Part shown: positions 32,834 through 41,236 of the stretch, one piece after another | How positions within the stretch are numbered: position 1 is the stretch's first letter | Layout: the number at the start of each line of letters is the position of its first letter | Assembly: GCF_016406085.1 (NCBI RefSeq) | Contig: NZ_JAEHFJ010000010.1 | Coordinates: forward strand, 1 to 64,000 | Source: Aureibaculum flavum | GTDB taxonomy: Bacteria > Bacteroidota > Bacteroidia > Flavobacteriales > Flavobacteriaceae | Length of the DNA stretch: 64,000 nt | Direction: 5' to 3' | Made by a program: the position numbers and the translations under genes | The notes under the pieces: model-generated | Told to the model about the DNA's origin: nothing | The model's database searches: none | Seen by the model: the letters and a program-made list of their open reading frames with translations, nothing else

Positions 32834-35395
32834 ATGAAATTAACTAAGTACATACTATTTATACTCTGTTTATTTCCAATTTTAGGAATAGCTCAAGAAC
32901 AGTTTCCTTTTCAAAATCAAAAATTGTCAACTGAAAAGAGAGTAACTGATCTTTTAGACCGATTAACTATAGAAGAAAAAGTTTCTTTATTAGTTTCCAC
33001 AGCCGTAGCAATTCCGAGATTAAACGTTGCAAAGTATTATCATGGAAATGAAGCGTTACATGGTGTTGTAAAAGGTGGACGTTTTACCGTTTTCCCTCAA
33101 GCAATAGCCTTGTCAGCAACTTGGAATCCTGATTTAATTTATAACGTATCATCTGCTATTTCTGATGAAGCAAGAGCCAAATGGAATTTTTACAATCAGG
33201 GTTTAGACCAAAAAAATGTTTATAGCGATTTACTAACCTTTTGGTCGCCAACCATAAATATGGCGAGAGACCCTAGATGGGGACGAACTCCAGAAACCTA
33301 TGGTGAAGATCCATATCTAACTAGTAGAATTGGAGTTTCTTTTGTAAAAGGACTGCAAGGAAATGATAAAAAATACCTAAAAGTAGTTTCAACTCCAAAA
33401 CACTTTGTTGCTAATAATCAAGAAGATAATCGATTTGCTTATAACGCTGTAGTTTCAGAAAAATCATTACGTGAATATTATTTTCCTGCTTATAAAGCAG
33501 CTATTAAAGAAGGAAATGTTCAGTCTATAATGAGTGCCTATAATGCCATAAACGGTATTCCAAGTACTGCAAATAATTGGCTTTTAAATACTATATTAAG
33601 AGAAGAATGGGGCTTTAAAGGTTATGTAGTGAGTGATTGTGGAGCTCCAACCTATTTAGTGAAATCACACCAATTTGTAAAAACTAAAGAACAAGCTGCA
33701 AAAGTTGCTATAGAAGGTGGTTTAGACTTAGAATGTGGTGATGATATTTATGCAAAGCACTTATTAACGGCTTATAAAAATGGGTTAGTTTCACAAGCAT
33801 CAATTGACAAATCGGTTATCCGAGTTTTAAGAGCACGATTTAAATTAGGTATTTTTGATTCCACGGAAAAAAATCCATATACAAAAATTTCACCTGATGT
33901 TATTGGTTCTAAAAAACATCAAGATTTGGCTCTTGAAACATCAAGGCAATCCATTGTTCTTTTAAAAAATCACAATAATACGTTACCTTTAAATTCTGAT
34001 AAAATAAAAAAAATAGCAGTAGTTGGTTTTAACGCTAATCAGGTTGTTTTTGGTGATTATAGTGGACTATCAGTTATAAAACCAATATCGCCACTTGAAG
34101 GTATTCGAAATAAAGTAGGTGATAAAATAGCTGTTACTTATGTCAAATGGAAAACGGCTGCAAGAAATTTAAATCTTTTGGAAGCAGAAAATTTACGAAA
34201 TGATTTTAATGATGAATCAGGTTTATTTGGCGAATATTTTGATGATAAATTCTTAGAAGGCACACCGCAAACTCGTATTGACAAAGTTGTAAATTTCGAC
34301 CCTGTAAATAACCCTCCAGATCCATACACCAATTACAGACATAAATCCATACGATGGACTGGTTATATCACGCCCAATTTTTCAGGTTCCTATAAAATTG
34401 GAGTGAACTCTGATGATGGAATACGGTTATGGCTAAACAACAAGTTGGTTGTAGATGAATGGCACAATCGAGGAGCGACTACAGATCAAGTCAAAATTAA
34501 TATGGAAGCTGGCGAAAAATATGCTATTAAATTAGAGTATTTTGATAATGGTGGCGACGCCATTTGTCAACTACTATGGGAAGTACCAAATAGCACTGAG
34601 GATATATACCAAGAGGATAAAGAAGCTGCTAAATCAAGTGATTATGTGATCGCCGTAATGGGAATAAATAAATCTATTGAAAAAGAAGGAAAAGATAGAA
34701 CATCATTAAATTTACCTGAAGATCAAATTAATTATCTAAAAGAGATGTATGCTCTAAACCAAAATATGATTGTTGTTTTGGTGGCTGGCAGTTCTTTAGC
34801 TATTAATTGGATGGACGATAACATACCAGCCATTATTGATGCTTGGTATCCGGGAGAATCTGGAGGAACAGCTATTGCTGATGTTTTATTTGGTGATTAC
34901 AATCCTGCCGGCAGATTGCCATTTACCTTTTATAAATCTGTTGATGACTTGCCTCCAATGGAAGATTATGAAGTATCAAATGGTAGAACCTATATGTATT
35001 TTCAAGGAGACGTGTTATATCCTTTTGGATATGGTTTAAGTTATACTCAATTTGATTACAGCGATTTAAAAATTAAAGAAAATGACGAAAAGATTATTAT
35101 TTCAGCTACCGTAAAAAACATAGGTAATTATAATGGTGATGAAGTAGTTCAATTATACTTTAAAGCACCTGAATCTGTTAATAAAAGTCCCATAAAGAAG
35201 TTAATTGGTTTCAATAGAATTTCTCAACATATCGGAAAATCAAACCAAGTACAATTTGAAGTTTTAAAAAAGGAATTACAATTTTGGGATGAAGAAACTA
35301 AACAATGGAGTTTTACAAATGGTGACTATGAATTTATGCTAGGAGCTTCTTCTGAAGATATTCGCTTAAAGAAAACAATTGTATTAAATCAATAA
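32834..35395 (+). CDS. GH3 glycoside hydrolase with inserted PA14 domain
   Basis: 853 residues with a signal peptide ending ...LGIAQ. The GH3 barrel carries KHFVANNQE and the nucleophile Asp near 268 in VVSDCGAPT, where many beta-glucosidases have Trp after SD. In the C-terminal alpha/beta domain a PA14 module is inserted at about residues 458-590 (GLFGEYFDDKFLEG... YKIGVNSDDGIRLWLNNKLVVDEWH), as in several PUL GH3 enzymes where it shapes the substrate pocket. The probable acid/base region is EKEGKDRTSLNLP, and a fibronectin III-like end follows. It acts on a beta-linked terminal sugar (glucose, xylose or similar). A copy of its last 15 codons is found again at 37033. Confidence 0.9.
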   Translation: MKLTKYILFILCLFPILGIAQEQFPFQNQKLSTEKRVTDLLDRLTIEEKVSLLVSTAVAIPRLNVAKYYHGNEALHGVVKGGRFTVFPQAIALSATWNPDLIYNVSSAISDEARAKWNFYNQGLDQKNVYSDLLTFWSPTINMARDPRWGRTPETYGEDPYLTSRIGVSFVKGLQGNDKKYLKVVSTPKHFVANNQEDNRFAYNAVVSEKSLREYYFPAYKAAIKEGNVQSIMSAYNAINGIPSTANNWLLNTILREEWGFKGYVVSDCGAPTYLVKSHQFVKTKEQAAKVAIEGGLDLECGDDIYAKHLLTAYKNGLVSQASIDKSVIRVLRARFKLGIFDSTEKNPYTKISPDVIGSKKHQDLALETSRQSIVLLKNHNNTLPLNSDKIKKIAVVGFNANQVVFGDYSGLSVIKPISPLEGIRNKVGDKIAVTYVKWKTAARNLNLLEAENLRNDFNDESGLFGEYFDDKFLEGTPQTRIDKVVNFDPVNNPPDPYTNYRHKSIRWTGYITPNFSGSYKIGVNSDDGIRLWLNNKLVVDEWHNRGATTDQVKINMEAGEKYAIKLEYFDNGGDAICQLLWEVPNSTEDIYQEDKEAAKSSDYVIAVMGINKSIEKEGKDRTSLNLPEDQINYLKEMYALNQNMIVVLVAGSSLAINWMDDNIPAIIDAWYPGESGGTAIADVLFGDYNPAGRLPFTFYKSVDDLPPMEDYEVSNGRTYMYFQGDVLYPFGYGLSYTQFDYSDLKIKENDEKIIISATVKNIGNYNGDEVVQLYFKAPESVNKSPIKKLIGFNRISQHIGKSNQVQFEVLKKELQFWDEETKQWSFTNGDYEFMLGASSEDIRLKKTIVLNQ

Positions 35396-35409
35396 TAATT
35401 TTATCAAAA

Positions 35410-36822
35410 ATGAAAATACTATTTCACAAAAATATTTTATTAAGTTTATGCTTTATAGGCTTCTTCTTAACTACATCTTTAGCCCAAACTAACAATAAAA
35501 TGGATTGGTGGAAAGATGCCAAGTTTGGTATGTTTATGCATTGGGGTTTGTACTCTCAAACAGCAGGTTATTGGGATGGACATAAAGCAAAAGGCAGTGA
35601 GCATTTCATGATTCATGAAAAAATTTCCTTAAAAGAATATGGTAAAATAGCCAATGATTTTAACCCTGTAAATTTTGATGCTGAAAAATGGGTACTTACC
35701 GCTAAAAATGCTGGTATGAAATACATCATTATTACCTCAAAACACCACGATGGCTTTGCAATGTTTGACTCCCCTTCAAATAGTTATAACATCAAAGAGA
35801 AAACGCCTTATGCCAAAGACCCCATGAAAGAACTTGTGGATGCTTGCCATAAACACGATATGAAATTTGGATTTTATTATTCTTTGGGTCGCGATTGGGA
35901 AGACCCTGATGTACCAACCGACAAGCCCTTTAAAGGTGGTAGAAGCAATCTGGTTGATTATCCCGATGAGGATATAAAAGTATTTCACAAATATTTTGAA
36001 AGAAAGTTAAAACCACAAGTTAAAGAATTATTGACTCAATATGGTAAAATAGATGTAATTTGGTTTGATACACCACAGGACATTACATTGGAAGAAAGCC
36101 AGGAGTTAAAAGATTTGATTTTAAGCATTCAACCACACTGCATAATAAATAGTAGAATAAGTAACAACCTTGGCGATTATAACGTAAAGGAACAAAAAAT
36201 TGCCAAAGATGTAGAACCAAAACCATGGGAAGCTTGTATAACCATGGGCAAGAATTGGGGATATATCGAGTATGATACTATTTATAAATCTTCAGAATTA
36301 TTGACGCGACAATTGCTCGAAATAGTGAGTAAAGGCGGAAATTTATTACTTAATAATGGCCCTACTGCTAAAGGTGAAATTACAGATTTGGCTCAAGAAA
36401 GATTAGCAGAAATTGGAAAATGGATGGAGAAAAACTCAGAAGGTATTTACGGGTCGAGCCCTTGGAAAATTCAAAAGGAATTACCTTCAAGTTTTATCAA
36501 AACAAATGCTGAAAAGGAACAGAATGACAAAAACACAATGAAAGATGCTGTTAATGATGCCACTTCCAAAAAAATATTTCCTGAAATTAGATTTACTGAA
36601 AAAGATGGATTTGTTTACGCATATGTCTGTAGTTTTAACAATAAAAATATAAGTATTCAATCACTTTCATCTAAAAGTGTCGCAAATATTAAAAGCATTG
36701 TACAATTAGATACTAAAACTATCGTAAAAGGGAAACAAACTCAAACGGGATTGGAGTTAAAACTACCTACTTATTCTAAAAATGAAATTCCCATCACTGG
36801 GTTTAAAATTGAATTCGAATAA
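35410..36822 (+). CDS. GH29 alpha-L-fucosidase, tandem copy A
   Basis: 470 residues with a signal peptide ending ...TTSLAQ. GH29 motifs: KFGMFMHWGLYS, YIIITSKHHDGFAMFD, FGFYYSLGRDW and the nucleophile Asp near residue 220 in IDVIWFDTP. It continues through GGNLLLNNGPTAKGEIT to a C-terminal sandwich. By eye it differs from copy B (37083) at about 53 of 470 positions, roughly 89 % identity. It lies 14 bases after the GH3 stop. Differences cluster around the loop after GRDWEDPDVP and in the linker near residue 360, which could tune substrate choice. Confidence 0.92.
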   Translation: MKILFHKNILLSLCFIGFFLTTSLAQTNNKMDWWKDAKFGMFMHWGLYSQTAGYWDGHKAKGSEHFMIHEKISLKEYGKIANDFNPVNFDAEKWVLTAKNAGMKYIIITSKHHDGFAMFDSPSNSYNIKEKTPYAKDPMKELVDACHKHDMKFGFYYSLGRDWEDPDVPTDKPFKGGRSNLVDYPDEDIKVFHKYFERKLKPQVKELLTQYGKIDVIWFDTPQDITLEESQELKDLILSIQPHCIINSRISNNLGDYNVKEQKIAKDVEPKPWEACITMGKNWGYIEYDTIYKSSELLTRQLLEIVSKGGNLLLNNGPTAKGEITDLAQERLAEIGKWMEKNSEGIYGSSPWKIQKELPSSFIKTNAEKEQNDKNTMKDAVNDATSKKIFPEIRFTEKDGFVYAYVCSFNNKNISIQSLSSKSVANIKSIVQLDTKTIVKGKQTQTGLELKLPTYSKNEIPITGFKIEFE

Positions 36823-36850
36823 TTCCTAAGGATTATTTAATACCTGAGAT

Positions 36851-37031
36851 GTTTATCAGGTTTTGGCTATAAATAGAGATGGTGTGAAATTGTACAATGG
36901 TTAAATGCATAGTATAGATGGATTGAGATTGCAATCATAGAAATGTAAAATTATTATCCAATTTTAAAAACAAGCGATCCATACTAAAATGTATGGAAGC
37001 ATAAAAGGTATACTATTACATCAAGGTGAAA
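36851..37031 (+). pseudogene. Decayed remnant of the two-domain esterase gene
   Basis: Two pieces of this gap match the esterase gene at 38523-40166. About 36851-36912 matches 38787-38850 (shared blocks TTTTGGCTATA and CAATGGTTAAATG). About 36912-37031 matches about 39719-39848 (shared blocks AATTATTATCCAATTTTAA and TAAAAGGTATACT). About 870 bases between them are missing, as is the gene start. The order and strand are those of the intact gene. This is a pseudogene left by a tandem duplication of the fucosidase-esterase unit. Confidence 0.85.
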
Positions 37032-37032
37032 G

Positions 37033-37077
37033 ATTCGCTTAAATAAAACAATTGTATTAAATCAATAATAATTTTGT
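37033..37077 (+). repeat. Duplicated 3' end of the GH3 gene (duplication footprint)
   Basis: ATTCGCTTAAA then AAAACAATTGTATTAAATCA and AATAATTTT repeat, with a single base difference in the aligned core, the last codons, stop and spacer of the GH3 gene at 35360-35404. It directly precedes fucosidase copy B just as the original precedes copy A. It marks the left edge of the duplicated unit and shows copy B inherited the upstream context of copy A. Confidence 0.9.
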
Positions 37078-37082
37078 AAAAA

Positions 37083-38495
37083 ATGAAAATACTATTTAAC
37101 AAAAATATTTTATTAAGTTTATGCTTTATAAGCTTCTCCTTAACTACCACTTTGGCCCAAACTAACAATAAAATGGATTGGTGGAAAGATGCCAAGTTTG
37201 GTATGTTTATGCATTGGGGTTTGTATTCGCAAACAGCAGGTTATTGGGATGGACACATTGCAAAAGGAAATGAGCATTTCATGATTCATGAAAAAATATC
37301 CTTAAAAGAATATGGCAAAATTGCAAATGATTTTAACCCTGTTAATTTTGATGCTGAAAAATGGGTGTTAACTGCAAAACAAGCAGGTATGCAATATATC
37401 ATTATTACCTCAAAGCACCACGATGGTTTTGCTATGTTTGACTCTCCTTCTAATAGCTATAACATCAAAGAGAAAACGCCTTATGCCAAAGACCCCATGA
37501 AAGAACTTGTGGATGCTTGTCATAAATACAATATGAAATTTGGATTTTATTATTCATTAGGACGAGATTGGGAAGACCCGGATGTTCCTACCAATTGGCC
37601 CAATAAAGGAGGGAGAAGTAACCTCGTAGATTATCCAAATGAAGATATAAAAGTATTCCATAAATATTTTGATAGGAAAGTTAAACCTCAAGTAAAAGAA
37701 TTGCTTACACAATACGGAAAAATAGACATTATGTGGTTTGATACGCCACATGATATTAGTTTGGAAGAAAGTAAAGAATTACGTGAATTAATTCTAAAGT
37801 TACAACCAAACTGTATTATTAATAGCCGAATTGGAAATGATTTAGGTGACTATAAAGTAGAGGAACAGAAAATTGCTGACAATTTAGAAGTTAAACCTTG
37901 GGAAGCCTGTATTACTATGGGTAAAAATTGGGGCTATATTGAATATGATACGGTATACAAATCGGCAGAATTGATCACTAGACAATTGTTAGAAATTGTA
38001 AGTAAAGGTGGTAATTTGTTACTCAATAATGGTCCAACTGGGAAAGGTGAAATTACAGATTTGGCTCAAGAAAGATTAGCAGAAATTGGAAAATGGATGG
38101 AGAAAAATTCAGAAGGTATTTATGGGTCTAGCCCTTGGAAAATTCAAAAGGAATTACCTTCATATTCTATAAAAAGAAAGGTTGTAAAACAACAGAATGA
38201 CAAAAACACGATGAAAGATGCTGTTAATGATGCTACTTCCAAAGAAATATTTCCTGAAATTAGATTTACTAAAAAAGATGGTTTTGTTTACGCATATATC
38301 TGTAGTTTTAATAATAAAAATATAAGCATTCAATCACTTTCATCTAAAAGTGTCGCAAATATTAAAAGCATTATACAATTAGATACTAAAACTAGCGTAA
38401 AATGGAAACAATCCAATACGGGATTGGAGTTAAAATTACCAACTTATTCTAAAAATGAAATTCCCATTACTGGGTTTAAAATTGAATTCGAATAA
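37083..38495 (+). CDS. GH29 alpha-L-fucosidase, tandem copy B
   Basis: 470 residues, signal peptide ending ...TTTLAQ. It has the same architecture as copy A: KFGMFMHWGLYS, TSKHHDGFAMFD, nucleophile Asp near 220 in IDIMWFDTP, and a C-terminal sandwich. The gene keeps an intact frame, so both copies are probably functional; about 11 % of residues have diverged. The downstream spacer (GAATAATTCCTAAG then ATTATTTAATA) also repeats after copy A, marking the far side of the shared unit. It is followed 27 bases later by the intact two-domain esterase. Confidence 0.92.
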   Translation: MKILFNKNILLSLCFISFSLTTTLAQTNNKMDWWKDAKFGMFMHWGLYSQTAGYWDGHIAKGNEHFMIHEKISLKEYGKIANDFNPVNFDAEKWVLTAKQAGMQYIIITSKHHDGFAMFDSPSNSYNIKEKTPYAKDPMKELVDACHKYNMKFGFYYSLGRDWEDPDVPTNWPNKGGRSNLVDYPNEDIKVFHKYFDRKVKPQVKELLTQYGKIDIMWFDTPHDISLEESKELRELILKLQPNCIINSRIGNDLGDYKVEEQKIADNLEVKPWEACITMGKNWGYIEYDTVYKSAELITRQLLEIVSKGGNLLLNNGPTGKGEITDLAQERLAEIGKWMEKNSEGIYGSSPWKIQKELPSYSIKRKVVKQQNDKNTMKDAVNDATSKEIFPEIRFTKKDGFVYAYICSFNNKNISIQSLSSKSVANIKSIIQLDTKTSVKWKQSNTGLELKLPTYSKNEIPITGFKIEFE

Positions 38496-38522
38496 TTCCT
38501 AAGAATTATTTAATATTACAAT

Positions 38523-40166
38523 ATGACGAACATAAAAAATAAATTTAAAATATTTACTTTTTTTTACCTATTCTCACTAGTAACTATAGGACAAATCAAA
38601 GATACGATTTATTTGTGGTCAGATAAAGTTCCTAATGAAACTGAAAATAAGCACGCTGCAATTCAAACTAAAAATGTTTCCGGAAATGTGAAACGATTAA
38701 CAGATATTACTAATCCCTCGTTAACTGTCTTTAAACCAGAAAATCCTAATGCATCAAAAGCAGCAATTATCGTATGTCCGGGCGGTGGCTATCAAATTTT
38801 GGCTATAGATAAAGAAGGTTACGAAATTGCTCAATGGTTAAATGAATTAGGTTATACGGCTTTTGTTTTAGAGTATAGAGTTCCTAAAAAAGAAAAAGGT
38901 GCTTTACAAGATGTTCAACGAGCAATTCGCTTGGTGAGAAGTAAGTCCGTTGAATTTAATTTAGACCCACAAAAAATTGGCATTATGGGTTTTTCGGCCG
39001 GCGGTCATTTGTCAGCTAATGCTGCTATAAATTATCATAAAAAATCATATTCAAGTATTGATGTTATTGATGATATTTCAAGTCGACCTAATTTTGCCAT
39101 GCTTATCTATCCCGCATATTTAGATAAAGGAGACAATAGAAATTTAAGTCCTGAATTAAAGATTGATAAAAATACACCACCATTTTTTATTTTTGGCACT
39201 AGTGATGATTCTTATGGTAATAGTTCGTTGGTGATGGCAACAGCATTAAGAGATAAAAAAGTTCCTATAGAATTGCATATGTTAGCTAAAGGAGGACATG
39301 GTTATGGATTAAGAGCAGGTAATATAGCTGCAGAAACATGGCCCACTTTGGCAGCAAAATGGATGGAAAATTGGTTAGATTCAAGAGAAATTGCTAAATA
39401 TCAAAGAGAACTGAATTTTCCTAAGAAAGAAGAACCTTTGCTGAATTCACCTAAAAAAGAAAATGTTTGGGTATTTTTAATGGCAGGACAATCCAATATG
39501 GCAGGTCGTGCTTTTGTGGAACCTAGTGATACTATTTCTTCTCCTCGTATATTGACAATTAATAAAAACAAAGAAATAATACAGGCAAAAGAACCTCTTA
39601 ATATCTATGAACCTAACATGGAAGGGCTTGATTGTGGAATGTCTTTTGCAAGAAACCTTTTAAAAAATGCTCCAGAGAATACATCTATATTATTGATCCC
39701 AACTGCTGTTGGTGGTAGTAGTATAAGTCAATGGATTGGTGATTCTATTCATAGAAATGTCAAATTATTATCCAATTTTAAAGAGAAAGTAACATTAGCC
39801 AAAAAATATGGAATTGTAAAAGGTATACTGTGGCACCAAGGTGAAAGTGATGCAAATAAAAATGGTATTCTTAATTACGATAAAAATTTAAAAATTCTAT
39901 TTAAAAAATTCCGTAGGTCTACAGGAAATAGAAAATTACCCATTTTAGTAGGAGAACTTGGGGGCTATCGAAAAAATAGTGATTCTTGGAAATCGATTAA
40001 TCAAATTATTAATAACCATGCCAAAAAAGATAAATTTTTGTATGTCATTAGTACTTCTGATTTCAATCATAAAGGAGATAATTTACATTTTGATTCACAA
40101 AGTCAAAGGTTATTTGGTAAACGACTTGCCAAAACTTTTACTCAAAAAAATAAAAATAGCAATTAG
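38523..40166 (+). CDS. Two-domain acyl esterase: alpha/beta hydrolase fused to SASA/CE6-type SGNH esterase
   Basis: 547 residues with an N-terminal signal (IFTFFYLFSLVTIGQ). Domain 1 (about 25-290) is an alpha/beta hydrolase: oxyanion-type VCPGGGYQIL, nucleophile Ser near 157 in GFSAGGH, Asp in FGTSDDSYG and His in KGGHGYG. Domain 2 (about 312-540) is an SGNH/SASA esterase: MAGQSNMAG (Ser near 324), WHQGESD near 438 and the Asp/His pair in DNLHFDSQ. Both catalytic sets look complete. The fusion suggests removal of two kinds of acyl group, or one kind at two positions, from the same glycan. Its TAG stop overlaps the GTG start of the next gene by one base. Confidence 0.88.
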   Translation: MTNIKNKFKIFTFFYLFSLVTIGQIKDTIYLWSDKVPNETENKHAAIQTKNVSGNVKRLTDITNPSLTVFKPENPNASKAAIIVCPGGGYQILAIDKEGYEIAQWLNELGYTAFVLEYRVPKKEKGALQDVQRAIRLVRSKSVEFNLDPQKIGIMGFSAGGHLSANAAINYHKKSYSSIDVIDDISSRPNFAMLIYPAYLDKGDNRNLSPELKIDKNTPPFFIFGTSDDSYGNSSLVMATALRDKKVPIELHMLAKGGHGYGLRAGNIAAETWPTLAAKWMENWLDSREIAKYQRELNFPKKEEPLLNSPKKENVWVFLMAGQSNMAGRAFVEPSDTISSPRILTINKNKEIIQAKEPLNIYEPNMEGLDCGMSFARNLLKNAPENTSILLIPTAVGGSSISQWIGDSIHRNVKLLSNFKEKVTLAKKYGIVKGILWHQGESDANKNGILNYDKNLKILFKKFRRSTGNRKLPILVGELGGYRKNSDSWKSINQIINNHAKKDKFLYVISTSDFNHKGDNLHFDSQSQRLFGKRLAKTFTQKNKNSN

Positions 40167-41236
40167 TGAAAAATTATTCAACATATTATTTGCCCTTCGT
40201 TCTGGTTTTTATATTTATTTTAATCAACGATAGTAATGCTCAACATTTAAATGACATTCAAGTAATTGGCAGTCATAACTCCTATAAAATTCCTATTGAA
40301 AAACCTTTGTTTGATTATTTAGAAAAAATAGATTCAAAGAAAATGAAAGGCTTGCAATATGGACATATATCATTAATAAAGCAATTAGATTTAGGTTTAA
40401 GGAATCTAGAATTAGATGTTTTTTATGACCCAAAAGGCGGATACTTTTCAAACCCTAAAGGATTAGATATTGTGAAATTAGCTGGACAAGAACCGTTGCC
40501 TTTTGATAGTGAGGAGAAACTAAAATTACCTGGCTTAAAAATGTTTCATATCCAAGATATCGATTTTAGAAGTCATCATTTACTTTTCACAGAAGGTTTA
40601 AAAGCACTAAAAAAATGGTCTGAAGAGCACCCCGACCACTACCCTATAATTATTTTAATGAACACAAAAGATCAAAAAGTTGATCAAACTAGAAACCCAT
40701 TACCATTTGATAAAAACGCACTGAATAGTATAGATAAAGAAATTAAAAGTGTTTTTTCTAATACCAAATTAATCACACCTGATGATGTACGTGGAAACTT
40801 TAAAACATTAGAGAAGGCTATTTTAAAATTGGGTTGGCCAGAACTAAATACTTTAAAAGGAAAGTTTTTATTTGTACTAGATGAAAAAGAAGAAAGAATC
40901 AATAGCTATTTGGACGGACACCCTTCTTTAAAAGGCAGAGTACTTTTTGTAAATAGCAAAGAAGGCAACCCTGAAGCTGCTTTTAGAATTATTAACGATC
41001 CAATTCAAAATTTCAATTATATCAAAGAGTTAGTTTCCAAAGGTTATATGGTAAGAACACGAGCAGATGCAGGAACGAAGGAAGCAAGAAATAGTAGTTA
41101 TTTACGATTTGAAAAGGCTAAAGCATCTGGTGCACAAGTAATCTCTACAGATTATTACATACCCTCTACTTTGTTTAAATCTGATTTTAAAGTAATATTT
41201 GATGATGATAGTTATGAAAGAATTAAAAAGAATTAA
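40166..41236 (+). CDS. PI-PLC-like, Ca2+-dependent phosphoinositide phospholipase C type protein
   Basis: 356 residues from a GTG that overlaps the preceding stop by one base, giving a signal peptide (YYLPFVLVFIFILINDSNAQ). The X-domain signature is that of calcium-dependent phospholipases C: GSHNSY with His near 37, RNLELDVFYD with Glu and Asp near 82-84, and MFHIQDIDF with the second His near 127. In mammalian PLC-delta the equivalent HN, ELD and second His carry catalysis and calcium binding. It has no PH, EF-hand or C2 domain. Predicted action is cleavage of inositol phospholipid or a related phosphodiester outside the cytoplasm. Its position in a glycan locus is unexpected. Confidence 0.82.
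   Translation: MKNYSTYYLPFVLVFIFILINDSNAQHLNDIQVIGSHNSYKIPIEKPLFDYLEKIDSKKMKGLQYGHISLIKQLDLGLRNLELDVFYDPKGGYFSNPKGLDIVKLAGQEPLPFDSEEKLKLPGLKMFHIQDIDFRSHHLLFTEGLKALKKWSEEHPDHYPIIILMNTKDQKVDQTRNPLPFDKNALNSIDKEIKSVFSNTKLITPDDVRGNFKTLEKAILKLGWPELNTLKGKFLFVLDEKEERINSYLDGHPSLKGRVLFVNSKEGNPEAAFRIINDPIQNFNYIKELVSKGYMVRTRADAGTKEARNSSYLRFEKAKASGAQVISTDYYIPSTLFKSDFKVIFDDDSYERIKKN

Follow-up and report, generated by a model that had tools for sequence, protein, structure and literature searches.

Scar of a probable tandem duplication between two GH29 fucosidase genes in a polysaccharide-degradation operon of Aureibaculum flavum

The window analysed here comprises positions 1 to 64,000 of the Aureibaculum flavum contig NZ_JAEHFJ010000010.1, read on the + strand and representing one strain of the species. 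It carries a sugar-degradation (polysaccharide) operon of this Flavobacteriaceae bacterium, in which two adjoining GH29 fucosidase genes, fucA and fucB, are separated by a gap of 260 bases (Table 1). The fucA product scores 296 bits against the Pfam model Alpha_L_fucos, far above the curated cut-off of 25.2, and fucB shares its membership in GH29 at 89% identity to A. The nearest solved chain by sequence is 9s0x_A (E 1e-89). Both proteins keep the WFD motif with Asp220, which we take to be the GH29 nucleophile. Over the full length, dS between the two genes is 0.66 and dN only 0.064, well below the synonymous level.

Table 1. Features of the fucosidase-esterase locus in window coordinates.
Feature	Position	Strand	Basis
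GH3 glycosidase gene	32834..35395	+	Pfam GH3 N/C, PA14, Fn3-like
Last 36 nt of GH3 and short spacer, leading edge of the putative duplicated unit	35360-35409	+	matches 37033-37082
Fucosidase A (fucA, GH29), intact, 470 aa	35410..36822	+	Pfam Alpha_L_fucos 5e-88; ORF
Divergent core of fucA	35881..36369	+	maximum-likelihood breakpoints; 24% different from fucB, ends 7-8%
Copy of the post-fucB spacer (38496-38515)	36823..36842	+	19/20 identical
Esterase relic, piece 1	36843..36910	+	matches 38779/38790-38847; 81% identity
Esterase relic, piece 2	36910..37032	+	matches 39719-39847; 100/129 aligned columns, about 78%
Putative duplication joint: esterase ...CAAGGTGAAAG meets GH3 ATTCGCTT...	37032..37033	+	alignment ends
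Second copy of GH3 3' end and spacer, now non-coding	37033..37082	+	47/50 identical to 35360-35409
Fucosidase B (fucB, GH29), intact, 470 aa	37083..38495	+	ORF; 89% aa identity to A
Divergent core of fucB	37554..38042	+	breakpoint model of A/B differences
Intact two-domain esterase, BD-FAE-like alpha/beta hydrolase and SASA acetylesterase	38523..40166	+	Pfam BD-FAE 68-175, SASA 315-540

All elements of the gap (36823-37082) lie on one strand, in the order spacer copy, esterase piece 1, esterase piece 2 and GH3 tail. An earlier sequence-only reading had proposed exactly this series, and the alignments bear it out with small shifts of the borders. At its start the gap does repeat the spacer behind fucB. 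The two decayed esterase pieces, placed by that reading at 38787-38850 and 39719-39848, were found in the expected order and strand at 38790-38847 and 39719-39847. The GH3-tail copy is present too, but extends to the equivalent of 35409, at the start of fucA, rather than stopping at 35404, and in the alignment it runs unbroken from 37033 into fucB. The core of piece 1 aligns over 36854-36910, and a weaker backward extension to 36843/38779 can be followed by eye (CCTGA-GATGTTTATCA against CCGGGCGGTGGCTATCA). The local-alignment scores are 59 for piece 1 (67 nt) and 107 for piece 2 (123 nt), and elsewhere in the window the two pieces reach no more than 31 and 33. The window's own esterase is also the closest match of the relic, with at most 49 and 76 for any relative, and BLAST of the gap against the whole 4.75-Mb genome returned the gap itself and the named parent parts only.

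The single-fucosidase arrangement predicted by the sequence-only reading exists in a congener (G007/L025), which has the identical operon order with one fucosidase, one esterase, short clean spacers and no scar. Its genes run GH92, GH29, GH3, fucosidase, esterase, phospholipase-C-like, GH115-like and phosphoesterase, the last two names being presumed from general knowledge of such sequences. Scanning some 85,000 genomes, one for each species, yielded 15 further fucosidase orthologues in Flavobacteriaceae and relatives, and a family search of 397 genomes gave seven other genomes with an orthologue, mostly the same species again. The congener and 17 other distinct orthologues are single-copy. 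None of these genomes carries the fucosidase twice, and no relative was found in which two esterases are intact or two fucosidases of the fucA/fucB type are linked. When a viral origin was considered, no fucosidase relative turned up among viral contigs. The arrangement of genes near the fucosidase changes among the relatives: GH3 lies upstream of it in the window and G007, and downstream in L028, L030, L031, L032, L034, L036, L038 and L042. The esterase also varies, with both the BD-FAE and SASA domains in the window, G007, L028, L034 and L038, and with only the first domain matching in L027, L031, L032, L035, L037, L039 and L042.

We propose that the gap is very probably the non-functional scar of a tandem duplication followed by decay of one esterase copy. 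The copies are adjacent and in the same orientation, the flanks are duplicated in the expected order around a novel joint, and the relatives show the single-copy state. The event would have copied 2815 bp, from the last 36 nt of GH3 through the fucosidase to esterase codon 442, the copied unit corresponding to the equivalents of 35360 to 39847 and the second copy to 37033-39847. The duplication from the GH3 3' end into the esterase gene, already put forward from the sequence, gains weight from the single-pair congener with identical gene order and from the closeness of the relic to the window's own esterase. At the joint, esterase codon 442 is linked directly to the GH3 tail. Its position agrees with the earlier proposal, whereas the short homology suspected there comes down to an imperfect TGAA(A)GA similarity (TGAAAG/TGAAGA) on both sides, with no exact overlap. 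The first esterase copy would have been truncated at its 3' end by the joint itself, born without its last 319 nt, and would have decayed afterwards. These 319 nt encode the end of the SASA domain (residues 315-540), and the BD-FAE-like domain would have been complete at birth. This truncation was missing from the earlier account, which had correctly named the loss of the start and of the internal segment.

The alignments show the later loss of the start region, of which about 263 bp (38516-38778 equivalents) are missing, and of 871 internal bp (38848-39718 equivalents). Read from the sequence, the two relic pieces join at a TAG that is repeated in the intact esterase at 38848-38850 and 39719-39721, so that the internal loss falls between two TAG triplets. 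The relic has no start and no intact frame, and it differs from the intact esterase at 48 of 193 sites (25%). When relatives were used as outgroups, the changes assignable to the relic fell 8/14/7 on codon positions 1/2/3 (0/0/2 for the intact esterase). There is no third-position concentration, as expected for unselected sequence. Both fucosidases, by comparison, have intact GH29 frames and appear to have been retained under purifying selection, in line with the earlier view that two fucosidases were kept and the extra esterase discarded. Because the esterases of several relatives match only about residues 7-298, the first copy, though truncated, may have worked for a time.

Between the two fucosidases there are 187 differences in 1413 sites (13.2%) and 53 in 470 residues, very unevenly distributed. 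A three-segment model divides A at 35881 and 36370, and the two genes differ by 7.9% in the first segment, 24.3% in the second and 6.9% in the third. It gains 38 log units, compared with at most 12.4 in 200 permutations, and delimits a divergent core of 489 bp. The same contrast is seen at third positions, with 29/160 differences in the N-terminal segment (0.18-0.21), 83/160 in the core (0.52) and 15/150 in the C-terminal segment (0.10; chi-square p about 9e-18). The core value is comparable to the between-genera level. The divergence of about 11% given by the sequence-only reading averages a mosaic and is not a clock, and a simple history of duplication followed by 11% divergence is incomplete. 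Uneven constraint was rejected as the cause, since comparisons of A or B with relatives lack such a pattern, their C-terminal part diverging to roughly the same degree as the core or further. Trees of the end segments pair A with B as sisters, and for the C-terminal part L025 joins them next (100%). The core tree separates the two: A groups with L029/L035 (96%), and B has a weak affinity to L040. This separate placement is suggestive only, as the AU test of A and B as sisters in the core gave p of 0.06-0.21.

A further shift in divergence encloses the whole fucosidase-esterase block (35395-40319). Compared with G007, its dS is 1.3-2.3, whereas the genes on either side have values of 0.18-0.45, and the shifts lie near the GH3 stop codon and within the opening 150 bp of the phospholipase-like gene. 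The esterase tree still joins the window and G007 as sisters, at four times their distance in the GH3 tree (0.52 vs 0.13). Judged from the sequences, this suggests an allelic replacement of the block in one of the two species.

How the mosaic arose can be weighed by setting the relic against its non-coding flanks. Between the GH3-tail and spacer copies only 4 of 70 positions (6%) differ, compared with the 25% of the relic (Fisher p = 0.0004); the contrast becomes marginal (p = 0.056) when it is restricted to changes assignable to the relic lineage. An age read from the fucosidase ends would leave too little time for the decay of the relic, and an old duplication with later homogenisation of its ends and flanks is the simplest account. 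We regard this as the best reading of the mosaic and as somewhat favoured: gene conversion would have re-homogenised the fucosidase ends and their immediate flanks and spared the 489-bp core. The tracts of excess similarity lie within the gene, are unexplained by constraint and include the non-coding flanks. A less probable but still serious possibility is that the tandem duplication is young, that the ends give its true age, and that the core of one fucosidase was replaced by a divergent allele through homologous recombination. Such an import competes with the conversion step only, not with the tandem duplication. It would fit the between-genera difference of the cores and their placement in the core tree, and the divergence of the whole block from G007 indicates that allele exchange seems to occur at this locus. 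Against it, 25% decay in the relic is too great for an age taken from 6% divergence in the flanks, and neither the scan of the roughly 85,000 genomes nor the search of the family turned up a donor whose core is closely similar, the best relatives having 70-77% protein identity.

A competitor of tandem duplication as the origin of the second fucosidase is a horizontal insertion beside the first gene, with the esterase pieces as the ragged end of the insert. The unusual divergence of the block from the congener could be read in this way. We consider it very unlikely, as the window's copies of the GH3 tail, the spacer and both fucosidase ends share 91-95% identity and lie a long way from all relatives. 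The relic is also closest to the resident esterase, and copying in place takes fewer steps.

It is also highly improbable that the gap is kept for a function, for example as an RNA hairpin or an internal promoter setting fucB expression. The relic does contain a perfect 7-bp stem, TCCATAC..GTATGGA (36978-36997), which is terminator-like on the minus strand, and the fold z-score of the gap is -1.86. This fold is weak, an Rfam search of the gap gave no RNA family, and the promoter-like matches exceed shuffles by only about 2 sd, for a consensus unsuited to Bacteroidota. For the Bacteroidota promoter motif TANNTTTG, the gap contains a single plus-strand occurrence (37069), and the window as a whole shows no excess of it. 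With no Rfam family and only weak folding, we view the gap as most probably an inert operon spacer. The inverted repeat (TCCATAC-TAAAAT-GTATGGA) is perfect in the relic and imperfect in the intact esterase, and it could reflect a templated (quasi-palindrome) mutation.

Finally, chance similarity of two short pieces in an AT-rich region, the hazard that the sequence-only reading had named for itself, was refuted and can practically be dismissed, as none of 2000 dinucleotide shuffles per piece reached the real scores (best 38 and 39 vs 59 and 107), order and strand fit, and the genome holds no matches outside the named parts.

The residue differences between A and B also gather in the middle of the protein, with 28 of the 53 within residues 161-320. 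Tentatively, conversion could keep the ends alike and leave the catalytic core sheltered, so that the pair would represent two specificities on one shared shell. If so, the changes around residues 171-174, 216-270 and 291-298 would set substrate choice. The locus forms a compact record of a polysaccharide-degradation operon gaining a second enzyme, with the copying joint, the lost neighbour gene and the two surviving paralogues still legible. The case also cautions that the average divergence of tandem paralogues can mask a mosaic and mislead dating.

Like known GH29 alpha-L-fucosidases, A and B have the Alpha_L_fucos domain and the WFD motif, and the same activity is predicted for them. A literature search on gene conversion in such loci gave no match. 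With gene conversion between tandem paralogues in general, the pair shares tracts of high similarity that include non-coding flanks and low similarity elsewhere in the gene; it differs in that homogenisation is confined to the ends, next to a deeply divergent core, for which core import remains a rival. The locus is a clear and well-preserved case of an ordinary, common process, with the added twist of paralogues alike at their ends and very different mid-gene. As in other tandem duplications with a pseudogene relic at the joint, a gene and fragments of its neighbours are repeated in order around a novel joint with a decayed partial gene. Nothing essential is different here, although the case is unusually readable, with the parent parts within 3 kb.
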